A DNA stretch of 64,000 bases from a bacterium (GTDB taxonomy: Bacteria; UBP7; UBA6624), in contig PBAU01000005.1 in assembly GCA_002716355.1 (NCBI GenBank), positions 20,425 to 84,424 of the forward strand. The letters run 5' to 3'. The position numbers and the translations under genes are program-made. A model generated the notes under the pieces. It had not been told where the DNA came from, did not search any database, and was given only the letters and a program-made list of their open reading frames with translations. This document shows positions 45,645 to 55,687 of this stretch, in pieces; position 1 is the stretch's first letter; each line of letters begins with the position of its first letter.

Positions 45645-46570
45645 TTAAGCAAATCCTCTAGAGTTTGATCTAAAGATATTTTTGGTTCCCAAGATGTTTG
45701 ATTTTTAAATTTACTACAATCTCCAAGCAACAAAGGCACATCACTTGGCCTATCTAAATCCGGGTCTTTTATCACCTCAGGTTTAATGGAGGACAAATCA
45801 ATCAACTTTTCCAACAATGTAGAAATAGAAATTGCAGTTCCAGTACATATGTTGTAAACTTCGCCTGGCTTACCTTTTTCAACAGATACTTTATATGCGG
45901 AAACCACATCTCTTACATCTGTAAAATCTCTTTCAGCATCAAGGTTCCCAACCTTTATAACAGCTGGAGCTCCTCTTTCGATATTTACGATTTGTCGTGC
46001 AAATGCACTGGCAACAAATTCCTCACCTCGTCTCGGTCCAGTATGGTTAAAAGCTCTTGTTCTGATAATTTTCATACCATAAGATTGATAATACTGATAA
46101 CCTAGAAAATCTTGAGCAACCTTACTTACAGCATAAGGAGAAAGTGGTCTTAAAGGGTTATCTTCTTTTATGGGAGTTTCATTTGGGTGAACAAGGCCAT
46201 ACTCTTCTGAAGAACATGCAATCTGTATAGTTGGAGAAAGTGATAAGTCACGAACAGCTTCGAAAAGATTAACCTGTCCGGTAATATTGGTGTTAATAGT
46301 GTCTGCAGGTGCTCTCCAAGAGGTTGGAACAAATGATTGAGCAGCAAGATGAAAGATCCAGTCTGGCTTAGCTTCCCTTAAGATTGTTCTCAAGCTTGTT
46401 GAATCTTGCAAATCTCCTTCAACAAGATTGATTGAATCCTGAATTGAATTTAAATGATGCAAGGGAGACCTTCGTCTTATGAGTCCAAAAACTTCAACTT
46501 GCTCATTTAGCAAAAACTCTGCTAGATGACTCCCTGCAAAACCACTAATACCTGTTATTAAAGCCTTCAT
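45626..46570 (-). CDS. GDP-6-deoxy-4-keto-mannose reductase-like SDR (RMD/GMD group)
   Basis: 314 aa extended SDR. NAD(P) motif ITGISGFAGSHLAEFLL, HLAAQSFVPTSWRAP, IACSSEEYGLV with the active Ser, SPYAVSKVAQDFLG (YxxxK), and TRAFNHTGPRRGEEFVASAF, the last typical of GDP-mannose 4,6-dehydratase and GDP-6-deoxy-4-keto-D-mannose reductase (Rmd). Its length suits Rmd, which makes GDP-rhamnose; GMD is normally longer. A GMD partner is not in the window. It shares one base with the eno stop. Confidence 0.8.
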   Translation of the reverse strand: MKALITGISGFAGSHLAEFLLNEQVEVFGLIRRRSPLHHLNSIQDSINLVEGDLQDSTSLRTILREAKPDWIFHLAAQSFVPTSWRAPADTINTNITGQVNLFEAVRDLSLSPTIQIACSSEEYGLVHPNETPIKEDNPLRPLSPYAVSKVAQDFLGYQYYQSYGMKIIRTRAFNHTGPRRGEEFVASAFARQIVNIERGAPAVIKVGNLDAERDFTDVRDVVSAYKVSVEKGKPGEVYNICTGTAISISTLLEKLIDLSSIKPEVIKDPDLDRPSDVPLLLGDCSKFKNQTSWEPKISLDQTLEDLLNWWRDQ

Positions 46571-47844
46571 TATCTAAATCTTACTCCTATATTCTTAAAT
46601 TTCAAATCCTTATGATCTGAAGCAATAGCAATTAGTCTATTGTATTTTGATGTTCTTTCCCCTCTTGCAGGTGCACCTGTTTTAATGAATCGAGAACCTG
46701 TTCCAACTGCAAGATCTGCAATAAAATCATCTTCAGTTTCACCAGACCTATGGCTTACTGACCAGTCCCAACCTGCCAATCTAACTTTTTTTATCGCATC
46801 AATAGTTTCAGTAACTGTACCAACTTGATTCAATTTAACCAACAAAGTGTTGCATAGATTATTCTCTATAGCATGGTTGATTTTTTTTACCTGTGTTACA
46901 AGTAAATCATCTCCAACAATATTAATTTTTTTTCCTAATATCTCATTCAACAGCAACCATGCTTCATCGTGTGATTCATCCATTCCATCCTCTATTGAAA
47001 CTATAGGATACCTGGAAGTCCAATCAGCATAAATATCGACCAAATCCTGAAAAGCAACTGATGAACCCTCCCATTCATAATATTTGTCTTTAAACAATTC
47101 TGAACTTGCAACATCTAAAGCCAAGAATACATTCTCACCAAGACTATATCTTGAATTAGAAATTGATTCATCGAGCAAATCCAATGCTGCTAAATTGCTT
47201 TTTAAATCAGGAGCAAAACCACCTTCATCACCTAGTGACGTTGACATTTGCTTATTATTTATTGTAGATTTTAATTCATGGTATATTTCAACACCTGCTC
47301 TAAGGGAATTCAAGAAATCTCCAGCTAGCCAAGGAACAATCATAAATTCCTGAACATCTAAATTATTATTTGCATGAGCTCCACCATTCAAAACATTCAT
47401 AGTCGGTATAGGTAAAGATGATTTGGATTCACTTAAACAGGATATCCACTGAAAGAGCTCTTGGTTTTCAATTACAGCGCCAGCTCTACAGATTGCCATA
47501 GACAATGGTAATAAACAATTAGCGCCAAGTTTTGATTTTTGAGCTGTACCATCCAATTGAAGAAGAATTTCGTCTACTCTGCCCTGCTCTCTGGGATCAA
47601 TATTTAAGATTTCAGGAATAATATTGTTGTTAAGATCATTTAAAACATCATCTACACCTTTTCCGCACCAAAAAGAACCTCCGTCCCTACGCTCTAAGGC
47701 TTCATGCGCTCCTGTAGATGCTCCAGAAGGAGCATTAGACCCAACAACAATCCCATTATTCAATTTCAGATCCACCCGCACAGAAGGAAAGCCCCTGCTG
47801 TCTAAAATCAATCTTGCTTTATAGTTTATTACTTTGTTGACCAT
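46570..47844 (-). CDS. eno: Enolase
   Basis: 424 aa. ARLILDSRGFPSVRVDL, NAPSGASTGAHEALERRD, GDEGGFAPDL, SIEDGMDESHDEAW, IVGDDLLVT and VSHRSGETEDDFIADLAVG are all enolase signatures with metal-binding Asp/Glu and the catalytic Lys loop. It makes phosphoenolpyruvate, one of the substrates of MurA encoded downstream. Its ATG lies inside the end of the lipoprotein gene (16-nt overlap). Confidence 0.96.
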   Translation of the reverse strand: MVNKVINYKARLILDSRGFPSVRVDLKLNNGIVVGSNAPSGASTGAHEALERRDGGSFWCGKGVDDVLNDLNNNIIPEILNIDPREQGRVDEILLQLDGTAQKSKLGANCLLPLSMAICRAGAVIENQELFQWISCLSESKSSLPIPTMNVLNGGAHANNNLDVQEFMIVPWLAGDFLNSLRAGVEIYHELKSTINNKQMSTSLGDEGGFAPDLKSNLAALDLLDESISNSRYSLGENVFLALDVASSELFKDKYYEWEGSSVAFQDLVDIYADWTSRYPIVSIEDGMDESHDEAWLLLNEILGKKINIVGDDLLVTQVKKINHAIENNLCNTLLVKLNQVGTVTETIDAIKKVRLAGWDWSVSHRSGETEDDFIADLAVGTGSRFIKTGAPARGERTSKYNRLIAIASDHKDLKFKNIGVRFR

Positions 47845-48473
47845 TTTATTTTTACACCTCTTGAGATTGCCTCAATTGCTTTTTCTTTGTATATAGGATT
47901 TGATGATTTATGTTGTATTAAGGCACTTCGACAATATTGATATGCATAAGTTTCTGGAATCTTTTCAGGAGAAGAAACTTTGGTTCCTTTTGCCCATTCA
48001 CCCCACATAAAATCAAGAACTTCTTTATTGTTGTCGCACCATCTTTCAATATCAAAATCAGTTACACCAAGGTAAAGATCCATAATATCTTCGTAAGTGA
48101 TTTTTCTCTGAAAGTGAATCACAATATCTGGCCAAGATAAATTATTTCTATTTAAAAAAGAAACCAACTCACCATTATCTTCAAAATTCAATCCGGCCCA
48201 ATTAATAGCTGCTGATTCGGAAGCGCTGTAATTGGTTTGAATGTTTCTAAAAAAAGCTTCCCTGAGAGCAAGGTTTTCTAAAAGAAAATATTCAACAAGA
48301 CTTTGAAATTCCTGATCACTAGCATTATTTTCTTTTAAAAGGATAAAATCTGGCCGCCTGGAAAGTTCTGATTGAGTAAAAGATTGATCATTAATGCTGA
48401 ATAAATAATCACTTTCCTTGTATGCACAATTAGAAAACAATAGACAAAATGCTATCAGTTTGTAAATCTTCAA
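47829..48473 (-). CDS. Lipoprotein with SurA-N-like chaperone domain
   Basis: 214 aa. Signal with lipobox LLFSNCA (Cys about residue 16). The mature part reads like the helical SurA/trigger-factor N-terminal fold: FSINDQSFTQSELSRRP, LVEYFLLENLALREAFFRNI, NLSWPDIVIHFQRKITYEDI, VTDFDIERWCDNNKEVLD. There is no parvulin PPIase domain. It probably acts as a periplasmic chaperone or holdase for outer-membrane proteins. It follows the third protease-like gene by 15 bp and belongs to that operon. Family call at pattern level only. Confidence 0.5.
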   Translation of the reverse strand: MKIYKLIAFCLLFSNCAYKESDYLFSINDQSFTQSELSRRPDFILLKENNASDQEFQSLVEYFLLENLALREAFFRNIQTNYSASESAAINWAGLNFEDNGELVSFLNRNNLSWPDIVIHFQRKITYEDIMDLYLGVTDFDIERWCDNNKEVLDFMWGEWAKGTKVSSPEKIPETYAYQYCRSALIQHKSSNPIYKEKAIEAISRGVKIKWSTK

Positions 48474-48488
48474 AATAAGATTTCTTGT

Positions 48489-49652
48489 TTAAACTGTACC
48501 TGGCAACGCTTCAACTGGCCTATCTTCAGGACTCATTAAAAATTCCTCAACCTCTCCAGACCTCAACACCACAAAGCCTAAAGTGTCTTGAGGGTGGCTG
48601 TCACGAATCAAACCAGCTAACTCTAAAGGAGTTGACACAATCTCTTCACTTGTATTTTCCTCACCATTGTAAAGTCGCCTTACTCTTGTCATTCCAAGTA
48701 TTATGTCACCTCTTGATAGACCTTGTCTTGAAGCAGGGGAGTTAGGGTCAACATCCTGGACCATGACTCCTGATTTTCCTAAATACTCTTCAGGGATATT
48801 TGCATAAATTGCTAATGTATCATCCAAAGGCCTCAAACCAAGTCCAACCCAAGGATGAAAAACCTCTTCACCCTGCATCATTTTGTATACAGATTCCCAA
48901 ACAATATTCGATGGTGTTGCAAAATTCAAATCCAAAACACTTGTTGATAGGTATTGAGGTGTACCTTGATTCTCTTGAACCGAAAAAGACATCAAGCCTA
49001 TTATTTTTCCTGTTAAGTCTATTAAAGGTCCACCTCTATTGAAAGTAAAATTATGAGCATCAGTCTGAATCATATTGGGCATCAGGTAACCGTTAGGTAA
49101 AAAATAATCTCTCAAAGCTGAGACAATGCCTCTTGTTGCTGCTTGCTGATTTGGCAAGGGCCTTCCAACGGCTATAACAGTTTGACCTTGTGTCAATTTA
49201 TCTGAATCAGCAAAAGAGGCAGCTTCAAATAAGGTATCTGGATTGTCAATCTTCAACAAAGCAACATCATTAAACTTATCAGAACCAACCAAAGATGCAG
49301 TGTATCTTTTATTTGCAACAATCACATTAATCCTTAATGCATCTTCCATGTTTTTAGCTGTAGTAACAACAAATCCATCTGGAGAAATAACAACACCAGG
49401 AAAACCATTGATCCCCACAGTCCTAGTAAAAGTTCCAGACATACTGATTCCATACCTGTTTTCAACAACCTCTATTGAAGCTAATGATGGATCAATAACC
49501 TCAAGAGCTTTAACGGTTGGTAATTGCGAAGTGTCTAAATCAAAAGTGGGAACCTCTTTTGCAAAAAGAGAACCTGCAAAAGAAAAAAACAGAACAAAAA
49601 GAACTAAGAGAATTGTAGTTTTATCATTTTTAGAGAAATTTATTTTTTTCAT
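48489..49652 (-). CDS. HtrA-like trypsin-PDZ pseudoprotease (triad His and Ser replaced)
   Basis: 387 aa with signal peptide, chymotrypsin-like domain (about 70-225) and one PDZ domain (about 265-375, SGVMVQDVDPNSPASRQGLS). Aligned with DegP-type proteases, the catalytic His of TNNHVV is Lys100 (GFVVTTAKNM), the Asp is kept (Asp129, FNDVALLKI) and the Ser of GNSGG is Arg206 (FNRGGPLI). Two of three triad residues are lost, so I infer it is not a protease but a binding or regulatory protein. It is coupled to the active protease gene upstream (ATGA). Confidence 0.88.
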   Translation of the reverse strand: MKKINFSKNDKTTILLVLFVLFFSFAGSLFAKEVPTFDLDTSQLPTVKALEVIDPSLASIEVVENRYGISMSGTFTRTVGINGFPGVVISPDGFVVTTAKNMEDALRINVIVANKRYTASLVGSDKFNDVALLKIDNPDTLFEAASFADSDKLTQGQTVIAVGRPLPNQQAATRGIVSALRDYFLPNGYLMPNMIQTDAHNFTFNRGGPLIDLTGKIIGLMSFSVQENQGTPQYLSTSVLDLNFATPSNIVWESVYKMMQGEEVFHPWVGLGLRPLDDTLAIYANIPEEYLGKSGVMVQDVDPNSPASRQGLSRGDIILGMTRVRRLYNGEENTSEEIVSTPLELAGLIRDSHPQDTLGFVVLRSGEVEEFLMSPEDRPVEALPGTV

Positions 49653-50914
49653 AAAGTTCCCCCTGCAAATTGGCCTTCACCTGGCTGTTCACCTAAAACA
49701 ACAGGAACATTGAAAACCTGTCCATTTCTTTCAACTGAAAGAATCACTTTAATATTCTTATCTAAACTGCGAATCCAAAACCTTGCCTCAAAAGCATCCT
49801 TTGGCATTTTCATTTCGCTTTTTGTGATTTTGCCATCATCATTCATGTCCCAGGCAATTTCAAGAATTTTGTCTCCCTGACGGAGCCCTGCTTTGTAAGA
49901 AGGACTTTCTGGATAAACATCAAAAACCTCAAAAGGTGTCTTAACTTGGTTTCTAGCTTGTCTAGCAAATGTGTCTGAAGCCCTGTCCCAAGCTTCTCTT
50001 CCTCCAAATGCACCCATGCCACCGCCTAAAGGGTTCCTTCCCTGTATGCCAATTTCATCAGACCACTCAAGAGTCATCCTGTCTATAAACACATAAAGAC
50101 CTAACCATGGGTATACAACCCGACCATGATCAATCGTGTCAAGCAAGGTTTTTTTTGCATCATTGGAGACTATAGCCATATTTTGACCTTCAAGCATAGA
50201 AGATCCTGCAAAATTAACACCTACCTGAAAACCATTCTCATCAAATAAAGGCCCCCCTGAGTTACCACCATTGATAGTTGCATCAGTATCAAAAGTATGT
50301 GAAAGCTCTGTACCGTAATCCCAAACAGTTGATGTACCACCTATTGCTCCATTTCCACCCAACATACGATTAACCAATTGTGGAGAAAGAACTCTATCTC
50401 TAACCGAACCAGCTGTTACTGTGTTTTTAAGCAAAAAATCTTTGTACATTGTGAAATTAGAACTATCTCCAGGGTTTCCTATTGCATAAACCTGCTCCCC
50501 TGCAACCACTTCATCAGAATCCCCAAATTTCACATAAGGAAAGACCTTACCCTCTTCTCCTGGCTCAGGAACAATCTGAAGAATAGCTATATCAATCTTG
50601 CAATTGTTAAACAAAAGTTTTGCATCCTCTACAGAGCCATCATTCAACCTTATAAAAGCCCATCTTTGTTTACCCCAGCCCATAACGTGACAATTTGTAA
50701 CAATATGACCTTCAGGAGTAACAATTGAACCTGAACCTCCGCCTAAGACGAAACCGGATTTATCTCCAGCGTAATCGCCGCCACCAGCTGTAACAGTTAC
50801 AGTTGACTGAACACTTGTGTTGACATTTTCAACCCACTTGGGATCGTCCTCGCCAAAAACAAATGCAAAAAATGCAACTGCGAACAAAACAAACAAACTA
50901 TTCTTAAAATTCAT
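49649..50914 (-). CDS. HtrA/Deg-like periplasmic serine protease with EF-hand-like loop in PDZ
   Basis: 421 aa with signal peptide. The triad is complete: His76 (IVTNCHVM), Asp108 (KIDIAILQI), Ser219 (NGGNSGGPLF). A long insertion (about residues 155-200) separates beta strands of the second barrel. The C-terminal PDZ domain (about 325-405) starts VFDVYPESPSYKAGLRQGDK and holds a perfect EF-hand loop, Asp356 to Glu367 (DMNDDGKITKSE), suggesting Ca2+ binding. It is flanked by two homologues without a working triad and is likely to form mixed assemblies with them, which is inference. Confidence 0.9.
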   Translation of the reverse strand: MNFKNSLFVLFAVAFFAFVFGEDDPKWVENVNTSVQSTVTVTAGGGDYAGDKSGFVLGGGSGSIVTPEGHIVTNCHVMGWGKQRWAFIRLNDGSVEDAKLLFNNCKIDIAILQIVPEPGEEGKVFPYVKFGDSDEVVAGEQVYAIGNPGDSSNFTMYKDFLLKNTVTAGSVRDRVLSPQLVNRMLGGNGAIGGTSTVWDYGTELSHTFDTDATINGGNSGGPLFDENGFQVGVNFAGSSMLEGQNMAIVSNDAKKTLLDTIDHGRVVYPWLGLYVFIDRMTLEWSDEIGIQGRNPLGGGMGAFGGREAWDRASDTFARQARNQVKTPFEVFDVYPESPSYKAGLRQGDKILEIAWDMNDDGKITKSEMKMPKDAFEARFWIRSLDKNIKVILSVERNGQVFNVPVVLGEQPGEGQFAGGTL

Positions 50915-50926
50915 AACATAACCTCT

Positions 50927-51970
50927 TTAAAAAAATTTCTTTTCGTCAAAATCTATAATTCGTCTGACGACCTTAAAATCAAAATCTAAGAAAGTGCCGT
51001 TTCTGTAGATAGTAACAGTATGCCCTTTCATAGAAAAATTATCTTTATCTATCCAAGATCCAAAAATTGACCAAAAATCATCATGCACAGCTAAAGATTT
51101 ACCATCTAATGCCGTAATAATATCACCTGTCCTCAATCCAGTTCTCCAACCAGAACCAGTTTCAGCAAGCCCTGGTATATAAAGACCTTCGCCAAGATAA
51201 CCTGTTTTTAATCTAATTTCTTCAGGTATAGCCACAGGATCCAAACCCCAATCGACATGTAAATATCTTCCGCTTTCTATAAGTTCAGGCAGTACGATGT
51301 TGATGATATCTACAGGAAGAGCAAAGTTCAAAAATAAATTTTCACTATTTCTTTGCTTCAATGTGGGCATTCCAATCACCTCACCCCTTAAAGAAAGCAA
51401 GGCTCCCCCTTGTTGTCCCCCATTCAAAGCTGCATCAAATTGAAAAAATGTAGATAATCCACCACCCAGCTTGTTACCGGATAAAGTCGTAGCAGAAACA
51501 ATTCCTTTTGAAGTATTGCAACAAATACCTTCAGGGTTTGGAGACATAACCATTAAAGATTCACCAACAGAATAAGAATTTTGAGATAATTTCAAAGATG
51601 GAATATGAGGTCTCTTGATCTTAAGTTCCAAAACTGCCAAATCTGTAGGCACATCGTAACCAATTACTTTAGCCTCTACTGACCTCCCATCATTAAAAAG
51701 AATTCCAACATGTTTAGCGTCTCTTACATTTGAAGCTGTTGTCAATATGAGACCTTCTTCAGAGTCATAAACAAAACCGCTACCTATTTCAGTTTGGCTG
51801 ACATCACCATAAACCGAAGTAGACATTTTTGATTTAACAACTTTTATCCCTACGATACTATTTCTTGAATTTCTATAAATTTCCTCAAATCTACCTCTTT
51901 CAAAATCACCTAAATCAACATCTGAAAAAGATATAACGAATAAACAAAATAATATTTTTAAAATTTTCAT
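50927..51970 (-). CDS. HtrA-like trypsin-PDZ pseudoprotease (triad His and Ser replaced)
   Basis: 347 aa with signal peptide, chymotrypsin-like domain and PDZ domain (GLYIPGLAETGSGWRTGLRT). The His position is Ser80 (LILTTASNV), the Asp is kept (Asp110, VPTDLAVLEL) and the nucleophile is Gln187 (LNGGQQGGALL). Like the homologue at 48489-49652 it shares a TTAxN signature in place of TNNHV. I infer a non-proteolytic partner. Short PDZ linker and a CC pair (GICCNTS) are further features. Its ATG overlaps the stop of the BON lipoprotein gene (ATGA). Confidence 0.88.
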   Translation of the reverse strand: MKILKILFCLFVISFSDVDLGDFERGRFEEIYRNSRNSIVGIKVVKSKMSTSVYGDVSQTEIGSGFVYDSEEGLILTTASNVRDAKHVGILFNDGRSVEAKVIGYDVPTDLAVLELKIKRPHIPSLKLSQNSYSVGESLMVMSPNPEGICCNTSKGIVSATTLSGNKLGGGLSTFFQFDAALNGGQQGGALLSLRGEVIGMPTLKQRNSENLFLNFALPVDIINIVLPELIESGRYLHVDWGLDPVAIPEEIRLKTGYLGEGLYIPGLAETGSGWRTGLRTGDIITALDGKSLAVHDDFWSIFGSWIDKDNFSMKGHTVTIYRNGTFLDFDFKVVRRIIDFDEKKFF

Positions 51971-52512
51971 AAAATTCTCCCTGGACCTCCTGGTGGAATT
52001 ATTGGTGGGATACCAGGATGGCCACCACCCGGCAAACCTGGATCAATAGGATCTCTTGAATCATCTTCCTCTTCAGCATGATCGTCTTCATCATCATCTA
52101 AGCCAAAACCAACAAACTCACATACCTCAGTAGCATCTCTTGGGCCAATAATTTCAAGCCTATTTACAACATCTCTAATTTCAGGGACTAAACTTGCCAA
52201 TCTTTCCGCTTCTCTCTTTTGTCCGATAGTTTCTATAGTTCCTTCAAGTATCGCAACTCTATTTTCAACTCGTGGTTTTATCACTCCATGATTACCGTTA
52301 TCCTTATCGTTAAGTTGTAATTGCAAGCAAACATCAGATGAAAGCTGTACCAACAAAGCGGCTTCAAGAGTTTTATCAATAGCTTCTTTTGTTTTTTCTA
52401 ATGGAGCAATTTTTGTTTGTTCTGCAACAGTTTTACCAACCCCCAAGTTCAACAAACAAGCTTGAAGAGAAAGCAAAGAAAAAATCAATATAAAAAACTT
52501 CATATCCCGCAA
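51967..52512 (-). CDS. BON-domain lipoprotein with acidic and Pro/Gly-rich tail
   Basis: 181 aa. Lipobox LLSLQAC (Cys about residue 19), then one BON domain (about residues 48-130): VENRVAILEGTIETIGQKRE, ERLASLVPEIRDVVNRLEII. BON domains bind phospholipid or envelope components. After a VCEFVGFG segment comes an acidic stretch (DDDEDDHAEEEDD) and a tail of Pro and Gly (DPGLPGGGHPGIPPIIPPGG). It is the first gene before the protease array and overlaps it, so it probably localises or regulates that system. Confidence 0.75.
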   Translation of the reverse strand: MRDMKFFILIFSLLSLQACLLNLGVGKTVAEQTKIAPLEKTKEAIDKTLEAALLVQLSSDVCLQLQLNDKDNGNHGVIKPRVENRVAILEGTIETIGQKREAERLASLVPEIRDVVNRLEIIGPRDATEVCEFVGFGLDDDEDDHAEEEDDSRDPIDPGLPGGGHPGIPPIIPPGGPGRIL

Positions 52513-52563: not shown

Positions 52564-53973
52564 TTAGCTAACCAATGAGTAATCTAAAACAATAGCTTGC
52601 TCATATGCAGGCATAATCATTTCTGTTGAAAAGCCATAAATAATACCTCCAACGAACAAAACCCACATAAATCTAGAAAAGATAATAGCGGTATATGCTT
52701 GAGAATTAGACAATCTGTAAAGTTGACCAAAACCTAAAACAGCAACTCTAAAAAGCATAAATGCAGCAAAACCAATCAGTGTGATCCCAATATACAAAGA
52801 AAAGCCTTGAGTGAAGAAAGCCAATAAGCAGCCTAAACCAAGAATACAGCTATAAGGGGTTAACAAGCTGGAAGCAAAAAATGTTGTACCAAACTTTAAA
52901 TCACTCTTAACAATTAATGAACCAAGATAGTTTGCTAACGCATTTACAAACCACAAACCAATAACTATAGCAGGAAACCATTGTATAAACATGTCTATAT
53001 GCTGTCTAAAGAAATTAATTAAATTTTGGGCCAAACCAGCTAATACGATGTAACCTTTTTCAGGATCATTTTCAACATTAGAAAAAACTGAAAACTTCAT
53101 TACCTCCAAGTATGCATAAACAACATTCCCATTAATCCAAGATAAAAGCATTCCTTTCAAGGATGAGGTGAATCCAACAAAAAGAAAAGAGGAGCATAAA
53201 ACCAGTGCAAAAGGATAAAAGAATGTTTCCCCTTTACCAAAATCTGCAAACAATTCTCCTGGCTCGTCAAAAGACCTCATAAAATCATCTACACCTTTTT
53301 TGCCTAAAGTTAAAAGCAAAACAATACCTATAAAAAAGAAAGTTAATGCTGTTGCAGATCTTTCTGTTAAGACAATAGGCCCTAAATTAAAAATTACAGG
53401 ATAAACAGAAACAAAAAACAGATTTTCAAATTCTTCAATCTGCTTTCCGTTCAATAAAGAAACATCTGTCATCCATAATCTATGCAAAGTGGAAGACTCT
53501 TGGCTATAGACAATCCACCAAGCTCCAGATTTTTGGTTTTGATCTGTGTAGTCAAGCCTGACTATATAGTGACTATCAGAATAAACTGTTTTTGAATCAA
53601 CCTCAAAGCCAAGGTTCTCCTGCAGGTGTCTCTCTAACAGTCTCGCTTTAAGAACTGTAGTGGAAACCTGCCCTGATGAAACACCTAGAGGTGTGGATCT
53701 TACATCTAAAACTTTTTGTGAACCAGAATTACAAATAAACCGATCACCAACTTCTTCAATCTTAAGCCAGCCATTTTTAAATTTTTTACCTGAAGAATAC
53801 TCTGTATCAGGAACAACAACTTCCCAAGAATCCTCCTGAGTGGAATTACACGTCCAAGATGAAGGTAAATTAAGTCTTATACCGGTTGACTCATCAACAG
53901 TTTTTGCATCCAATAAAAATGAAAAACTGGAAGAAGCAACAAGGCAAAAAAATATTATTATTTTTTTAAGCAT
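52564..53973 (-). CDS. Signal-peptide protein with Yip1-like membrane domain
   Basis: 469 aa. N-terminal signal (KIIIFFCLVASSSFSFLLDA) and a soluble domain to about residue 195 (strands such as HYIVRLDYTDQNQKSGAWWI), then a transmembrane helix and a five-helix domain (about 265-450) resembling Yip1: FFYPFALVLCSSFLFVGF, IVIGLWFVNALANYLGSLIV, FASSLLTPYSCILGLG. Function unknown; in the same direction as the BON/protease genes, 51 bp before them. The hairpin after groEL lies upstream, so it may have its own promoter. Confidence 0.5.
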   Translation of the reverse strand: MLKKIIIFFCLVASSSFSFLLDAKTVDESTGIRLNLPSSWTCNSTQEDSWEVVVPDTEYSSGKKFKNGWLKIEEVGDRFICNSGSQKVLDVRSTPLGVSSGQVSTTVLKARLLERHLQENLGFEVDSKTVYSDSHYIVRLDYTDQNQKSGAWWIVYSQESSTLHRLWMTDVSLLNGKQIEEFENLFFVSVYPVIFNLGPIVLTERSATALTFFFIGIVLLLTLGKKGVDDFMRSFDEPGELFADFGKGETFFYPFALVLCSSFLFVGFTSSLKGMLLSWINGNVVYAYLEVMKFSVFSNVENDPEKGYIVLAGLAQNLINFFRQHIDMFIQWFPAIVIGLWFVNALANYLGSLIVKSDLKFGTTFFASSLLTPYSCILGLGCLLAFFTQGFSLYIGITLIGFAAFMLFRVAVLGFGQLYRLSNSQAYTAIIFSRFMWVLFVGGIIYGFSTEMIMPAYEQAIVLDYSLVS

Positions 53974-54031: not shown

Positions 54032-55687
54032 TTAAAATCCGCCCATTCCAGGCATTCCTCCACCAGGAGGAGGTCCACCCATTGGTTGCTCTTTCTCTTC
54101 CGGAAGATCTGTAACCATAACTTCAGTAGTTAAAACCATTGATGCAATACTAGCAGCATTTCTCAAAGCGCTTCTTGTAACAACAAGAGGATCTATAACT
54201 CCAACTTTAAGCAAATCACAGTATTCTCCAGTTAATGCATTAAATCCATGTGAACCTTTTTGTTCTTGAACTTTTTCAACAACTACAGAACCTTCATAAC
54301 CAGCATTTTCAGCAACTCTTCTCATTGGTTCTGTTAAAGCATTCCTAACAACATTTATACCCCAGTTTATAGAAACATCCTCATCATTCAATTTTTTAAT
54401 TTTATCAACACATCTAAGCAAAGTGACACCACCACCAGGAACAACACCTTCTTCAACAGCGGCTCTTGTAGCTGATAAAGCATCTTCAAATCTATGTTTC
54501 TTTTCTTTCATTTCTACTTCTGTTGGGGCACCTACTTTTATTTCAGCAACACCACCAGCTAACTTTGCTAATCTTTCTTGAAGCTTTTCTCTTTCCCAGT
54601 CACTATCAGTGCCATCAATTTCAGATCTTATTTGCTCTATCCTCCCCAAAACTGCAGGAGAACCTGAGTTTGAGCTAACTATTGTTGTATTATTTTTATC
54701 AATTATGACCTTCTGGGCAACCCCCATTTGATCTACATCAACATTTTCAAGTTTCATTCCAAGATCTTTACTAATAAATTCACCACCGGTCAAAATAGCT
54801 ATGTCTTGCATCATTGCTTTTCTTCTGTCACCATAACCAGGAGCTTTAACCGCGCATACGTTTAAAGTGCCACGAAGCTTGTTTAAAACAAGTGTTGACA
54901 AAACATCATTTTCAACCTCTTCAGAAATAATCAAAAAAGGTCTACCGTCTTGAGCAACTTTTTCAAGTATTGGTAAAAATTCTTGTGCGTTGCTAATTTT
55001 TGATTCATATATAAGAATCAAAACACCCCTGTCATCACCACCTATCTCACATTTTTGCATTTCTTTATCGTTTGCAAAATAAGGACTCTGGAAACCTCTA
55101 TCAAACTGCATTCCTTCAACAAAATCAGGACCAGTAGTTAAACCTGTCTTAGATTCCTCAATCGTAATCACTCCATCATTTCCAACTTTTTCTATTGCTT
55201 CAGCTATCAATCTACCAATCTCTGAATCATTGTTTCCGGATATTGTTGCAACACGCTCAATATCCTGTCTACCTTTAATTGGTTTTGCTGTTTTTTGCAA
55301 ATTTTCAACAACAGCATCAACAGCAGATTGAATGCCTCTTTTTAAAAGCATTGGATTAGCTCCAGCAGCTACAGCTTTTAAGCCCTCTTGAACCATTTTT
55401 TCAGTCAGAATAATAGCAGTGGTTGTTCCATCTCCAGCAGCATCATTCGTTTTACTTGCTGCTTCTTTTGCAACCTGTGCTCCCATATTCTCAAAAGGAT
55501 CTGGAAGTTCTATTTCCTTTGCAATAGTTATTCCATCATTTGTAACAACAGGAGAGCCAAATTTTTTATCAAGAATAACATTTCTGCCTCTTGGACCAAG
55601 CGTTTCACCAACTGCCTTAGCAACTTTTTCAACGCCTCCTAAAAACTTTTCCCTTGCTTCAGTATTAAAAATCAATTGTTTTGCCAT
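54032..55687 (-). CDS. groEL: 60-kDa chaperonin GroEL
   Basis: 551 aa. Clear signatures: ETLGPRGRNVILDKKFGSP, DGITIAKEIELPDPFENMGA, NDAAGDGTTTAIILTE, ALSATRAAVEEGVVPGGGVT and the Gly/Met-rich tail GGGMPGMGGF. It folds proteins with GroES. Only one copy is seen. It follows groES by 24 bp with an AGAGG ribosome site, and ends at a strong hairpin. No CIRCE element lies upstream of groES. Confidence 0.98.
   Translation of the reverse strand: MAKQLIFNTEAREKFLGGVEKVAKAVGETLGPRGRNVILDKKFGSPVVTNDGITIAKEIELPDPFENMGAQVAKEAASKTNDAAGDGTTTAIILTEKMVQEGLKAVAAGANPMLLKRGIQSAVDAVVENLQKTAKPIKGRQDIERVATISGNNDSEIGRLIAEAIEKVGNDGVITIEESKTGLTTGPDFVEGMQFDRGFQSPYFANDKEMQKCEIGGDDRGVLILIYESKISNAQEFLPILEKVAQDGRPFLIISEEVENDVLSTLVLNKLRGTLNVCAVKAPGYGDRRKAMMQDIAILTGGEFISKDLGMKLENVDVDQMGVAQKVIIDKNNTTIVSSNSGSPAVLGRIEQIRSEIDGTDSDWEREKLQERLAKLAGGVAEIKVGAPTEVEMKEKKHRFEDALSATRAAVEEGVVPGGGVTLLRCVDKIKKLNDEDVSINWGINVVRNALTEPMRRVAENAGYEGSVVVEKVQEQKGSHGFNALTGEYCDLLKVGVIDPLVVTRSALRNAASIASMVLTTEVMVTDLPEEKEQPMGGPPPGGGMPGMGGF

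Follow-up and report, generated by a model that had tools for sequence, protein, structure and literature searches.

The window analysed here, a stretch of 64,000 nucleotides from a genome of the little-known candidate phylum UBP7, carries on its minus strand three adjacent genes of the HtrA fold, which we call A, B and C and which are transcribed in that order from position 51970 to 48489. Gene A (50927-51970, 347 aa) and gene C (48489-49652, 387 aa) encode pseudoproteases, and between them lies gene B (49649-50914, 421 aa), which encodes an HtrA-type serine protease with its triad intact. Each protein has one PDZ domain, which in B is putative; the N terminus of A looks like a signal peptide by eye, and C bears an HPWxG...YxxIPxxY signature. 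An initial annotation of this DNA had described three trypsin-PDZ genes with junctions that are short or overlap, and its coordinates proved exact, with a 12 bp gap between A and B and a 4 bp, ATGA-type overlap between B and C. Matches to Trypsin_2 are above the Pfam cut-off in all three proteins (74.8, 86.4 and 79.6 bits for A, B and C, respectively). Their PDZ matches lie at the expected position and under the Pfam gathering cut-off, as with the PDZ_6 match of B (22.2 bits against a cut-off of 27). A and C align to chains of the DegP/DegQ/DegS type over both protease and PDZ domains, and B does so mainly across the protease domain. Five Trypsin_2 proteins are encoded by the source genome, which is 1.26 Mb in size and 87% complete; besides the three of the array, there are two ordinary HtrAs with intact triads.

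A check of individual residues bore out His76, Asp108 and Ser219 as the catalytic residues of B, and it also agreed with the annotation that both flanking proteins have lost the histidine and the serine. At the triad positions A has Ser80 for histidine and Gln187 for serine, with Asp110 kept, and C has Lys100 and Arg206 in the same places, with Asp129 kept. The annotated retention of aspartate is correct for the window and fails elsewhere, where the position is often N, G, E, K, H or S. A TTAxN signature said to be shared by the flanking proteins likewise does not extend to a more distant UBP7 relative, in which A has TSAQT, and it is thus no more than a remnant of the TNxHV motif.

Several conserved genes surround the array within UBP7. 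Immediately upstream, and overlapping A by 4 bp, is a gene for a BON-domain lipoprotein (51967-52512, minus strand, likely start codon at 52503), with a Pfam BON match of 27.6 bits against a cut-off of 27.0 and a lipobox, LQAC, recognised by eye. It holds the same position in both of the other UBP7 genomes available for comparison (G001 and G002) and is kept as the upstream neighbour of A in UBP7 only. Beyond it lie a membrane protein without known family (52564-53973, minus strand), which all three UBP7 genomes have at this place, and then groEL (54032-55687, minus strand), a recognisable GroEL sequence with a GGM tail that is conserved as upstream neighbour in UBP7 (also on L048 and L050). 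On the other side, 15 bp after C, is a lipoprotein of unassigned family (47829-48473, minus strand; lipobox FSNC by eye) whose conservation is limited to UBP7, followed by an enolase gene (46570-47844, minus strand), the conserved downstream neighbour in this group. By eye, the lipoprotein resembles the N-terminal chaperone module of SurA/PpiC; its one match in Pfam is a sub-threshold DUF1281, and we rejected a SurA_N identity, for which there is no Pfam support even with E values of up to 10.

The array is conserved in all three UBP7 genomes. The nearest relative, G001, matches contig DLTY01000043.1 of UBP7_UBA7824, which places the window in UBP7. Its array is 96-97% identical to the array in the window and has identical residues at the triad positions; that of G002, which belongs to a different genus, shares 40% (A), 61% (B) and 53% (C) identity. 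Both genomes have the gene order groEL, membrane protein, BON lipoprotein, A, B, C, lipoprotein and enolase, the neighbourhood in G002 being spread over two contigs. The replacements differ in G002, where A has glutamine at both the histidine and the serine position and C has serine and arginine, with the aspartate also gone (to asparagine). A comparison of the source genome with G001 gives dN/dS values of 0.033 (A), 0.020 (B) and 0.027 (C), at a dS of 0.6-0.7. A and C are thus under strong purifying selection, and the constraint on these two inactive genes is nearly as tight as that on B.

Beyond UBP7, the array occurs in two further phylum-level groups, for a total of 15 genomes: of those available, 3 of 3 in UBP7, 8 of 10 in group 2 and 4 of 4 in group 3, the last found when the survey was widened and its best borderline matches were inspected in more detail. 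Among 57 genomes sampled outside UBP7, one alone (G018, of group 2) had three tandem HtrA genes, and these showed the same pattern. All 15 arrays have the dead-live-dead arrangement in the same order. The catalytic histidine and serine are both absent from every A and every C protein (15/15 each), the histidine position of A in group 3 having been assigned by eye from the sequences (Ser, Arg, Thr and Thr), and the triad is intact in all 18 B proteins, including both copies in three genomes that have two B genes each. The residues that replace the catalytic ones vary by lineage, and the aspartate has been lost in many proteins too. An intact triad in a relative's A or C gene would have spoken for sequence error in the window; such relatives were looked for, and none was found in the 15 arrays. 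By comparison, all 104 HtrA protease domains outside arrays at the loci that we fetched have an intact triad; three more matches at these loci are PDZ-only proteins and lie outside that count.

The genes around the array differ from group to group. They are groEL and enolase in UBP7, rseP and proS in group 2 (with the order proS, A, B, C in 8 of 10 genomes), and coaE-folC upstream with gpmI or an acyl-CoA dehydrogenase gene downstream in group 3, the names in the latter two groups having been given by eye from translations. The array has therefore travelled or persisted as a unit of three genes in three different neighbourhoods, and no genome in the array-bearing groups was found to have A without C or C without A. 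When 384 sampled genomes were screened with a profile of the B family, B-type proteins were confined to these three groups and stood well apart in score (at least 311 bits, against 215 for the next protein). The B screen separates cleanly, whereas the screens for A and C, with models that lack group-3 sequences, do not cleanly separate divergent members and may miss some. A search of viral contigs found no relative.

Two observations concern individual genes in these groups. First, group 2 also encodes B-type proteases outside the array, with three genes at L198:5092-9159, two at L199:4684-7352 and one at L200:4504-5739; all keep histidine and serine, but in L198 the catalytic aspartate is replaced by glutamate in two of the three. 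Second, the C gene of one group-3 genome (G381; L166:4717-5813) has an apparent frameshift near its 5' end, which places the signal peptide and the mature part in different frames. In its relative in G393 (L176:4542-5678) the frame is open, and the frameshift is either an assembly error or a recent mutation.

A maximum-likelihood tree, computed from 74 HtrA proteins, gathers A, B and C into a clade apiece (98-100% bootstrap; branch support 98/91, 98/96 and 100/98, respectively), and each of the three roles has a single origin. It follows from one clade per role that each arose once before the lineages parted, or that the array passed between them in one piece. Within A and within C, groups 2 and 3 fall together and UBP7 stands apart. 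The tree is compatible both with a single event of catalytic loss and with repeated loss after the roles were set.

The three proteins also differ from ordinary HtrAs around the L3 loop, which in DegS is the sensor that relays PDZ occupancy to the catalytic loops (PMC11642142). The spacing from catalytic aspartate to serine is 108-121 residues in B (17/17 proteins), as against 72-82 in ordinary HtrAs (n = 29), 76-80 in A and 76-85 in C. The roughly 30 extra residues are diagnostic of B and are inserted around L3, after the GNP motif and ahead of the nucleophilic serine. At the start of this loop, ordinary HtrAs have an arginine in the context SAxxR (29/29), whereas in C (14/14) and in most A proteins (12/14) it comes one residue earlier, as SAxR; the two A proteins without SAxR are from UBP7. 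The L3 region has thus been remodelled in all three of A, B and C. The shifted arginine is common to A and C, though the tree does not join them, and this similarity reflects either an ancestry masked by long branches or convergence.

Predicted structures indicate that A and C retain the HtrA fold. AlphaFold single-chain models, built from 15-row alignments, are fairly confident, with a pLDDT of 79.6 for A and 83.0 for C. The top PDB matches are DegQ, DegP, AlgW and DegS for A and DegQ, AlgW and MucD for C, and TM-scores normalised by target length reach about 0.80-0.83 against HtrA chains that comprise protease and PDZ domains. These matches uphold the annotation of PDZ domains in the flanking proteins. 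On the models, A and C are predicted to have kept their peptide-binding parts while losing catalysis, and plausibly to have kept the parts that form trimers as well.

Taken together, these data suggest that A and C are probably long-standing working partners of a live enzyme and not broken genes. The proposal that the consistent losses reflect selected non-proteolytic roles is strongly supported by dN/dS values of 0.033 and 0.027, by universal loss in 15 arrays and by the single clade for each role. We put at roughly 0.55 the probability that the trio makes up an envelope protease module of ancient origin, inherited together, in which catalytic B would be served by two dedicated non-catalytic HtrA partners. 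A bolder reading, which we place a little short of even odds, is that of a dedicated HtrA machine of hetero-oligomeric build that joins one type of catalytic subunit with two regulatory pseudoprotease subunits and is older than the split of the three lineages. HtrA proteins form trimers in which one PDZ domain activates both its own and the adjacent subunit, in cis and in trans (PMC11642142). In the proposed module, A and C would most likely join B, either as members of the same trimers or as trimers stacked with those of B, and their PDZ domains and pseudo-active sites could bind client peptides that are misfolded or exposed at protein tails. They might then turn the activity of B on or off in trans by a relay of the L3 and LD loops between neighbouring subunits, so that each assembly would combine few cutting sites with several different sensing sites.

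Several lines of evidence favour a partnership of A and C with B: the constant order in three genomic contexts, the single clade for each role, the low dN/dS, the joint occurrence of A and C, the restriction of B-type proteins to the three groups, the changes in L3 and the precedent of MamO. Physical association, trans-allosteric control and the type of client are our inferences. A role in envelope quality control is suggested by the export signals seen by eye and by the BON lipoprotein and groEL neighbours, which are found in UBP7 only. Other points count against a mixed assembly. All characterised HtrA proteins are homo-oligomers, according to a review (PMC11642142), and bacterial hetero-oligomers would therefore be unusual. 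In addition, the unlinked B-type genes of group 2 indicate that such proteases can exist without linked partners, and A and C are missing from 2 of the 10 group-2 genomes (G060 and G068), both of which are incomplete (77% and 85%).

The array can be set against several known systems. B shares with DegP, DegQ, DegS and AlgW (MEROPS S1C) the protease domain, a putative PDZ domain, the export signal, the fold and the full triad, and differs in its long insertion in the L3 region, which ordinary HtrAs lack; A and C, of the same fold, differ in lacking the catalytic histidine and serine. The proteins are not members of the DegP, DegQ or DegS equivalog families, with scores of 59-114 bits against NCBIfam cut-offs of 408-756. 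In plants, the distinct HtrA-type proteins Deg5 and Deg8 have linked roles and share a compartment, and no protease activity has been detected for Deg5 (PMC3640471). Unlike A and C, however, Deg5 keeps its catalytic residues and has no PDZ domain, and the plant system involves one partner instead of two and no operon.

The closest precedent is MamE/MamO of magnetotactic bacteria which, like MamE1/MamE2, combines an active and a degenerate HtrA in one gene island (PMC4794232). The pseudoprotease MamO activates MamE-dependent proteolysis, and the pairing of active and inactive HtrAs arose repeatedly (PMC4794232). By contrast, the active gene described here stands between pseudoproteases of two distinct families, and the array occurs in three phylum-level groups and shows no magnetosome context. 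Membership of the magnetosome families was also rejected, with scores of 24.5 to 60.3 bits for MamO (NCBIfam NF040961) and 52 to 96 bits for MamE (NF040960), each against a cut-off of 800. The view that no operon of this design had been described needs qualifying in the light of MamE/MamO and MamE1/MamE2, which do pair active with inactive HtrAs. For the two-flank arrangement, we found no description of an array with two different pseudoproteases flanking an active HtrA in the open-licence PMC literature.

Of the other explanations, the most serious, to which we would give about one chance in four, is that A and C act on their own in the periplasm, as chaperones or substrate binders that merely share an operon with B, stay outside its oligomer and hold or deliver clients. 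HtrA proteins such as DegP have chaperone activity besides proteolysis, and the predicted protease and PDZ fold of A and C is intact and the genes are under purifying selection, all of which would suit such a role. Nevertheless, the three genes keep a strict order across neighbourhoods and A and C occur together or not at all, which suggests a bond closer than shared function, and the L3 changes are present in all three subunits, B included.

It is unlikely that A, C or both have taken on a different ligand, such as a transition metal. This idea has a precedent in the protease domain of MamO, an inactive HtrA domain that binds metal (PMC4794232). The NCBIfam models of MamO and MamE, however, score only 24-96 bits against their cut-off of 800, and the free variation among lineages in the residues that replace the catalytic ones does not suggest one shared new chemistry.

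Slightly less probable still is that A and C are inhibitors or decoys, which would poison B trimers or compete for substrates, leaving B active only once they are removed or saturated. Dominant-negative mixing is indeed expected in trimeric proteases with cooperative activation. The activation of DegP is cooperative (PMC11642142). Two different inhibitors conserved around B would nonetheless be less economical than sensing or adaptor roles.

Nor are A, B and C ordinary tandem HtrA duplicates; at other tandem loci (L059-L063) every copy has an intact triad, and the loss therefore needs an explanation beyond tandem position. Finally, sequencing error or decaying pseudogenes, in favour of which one can cite only the group-3 C gene that looks frameshifted near its start and nothing in the window, are effectively ruled out by the 96-97% identical relative, the same losses in 15 genomes, dN/dS values of about 0.03 and the open frames.

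To our knowledge, the only well-studied pseudoprotease partner in bacteria is the magnetosome one. If A, B and C do form a mixed assembly, it would be, among bacterial HtrA systems, the first known case of an obligate one, and the conserved trio would show that the regulation of envelope proteolysis by pseudoenzymes is older and wider than the magnetosome case. A and C would also provide natural loss-of-catalysis subunits for studying how signals pass between the subunits of an HtrA trimer, and the array offers a molecular marker common to three poorly known bacterial lineages. A related arrangement may exist elsewhere: on three contigs of Candidatus Hydrogenedentes (L055, L056 and L057), an intact HtrA lies in a same-strand cluster with apparent PDZ-only proteins on both sides, possibly an analogous design without dead protease domains.
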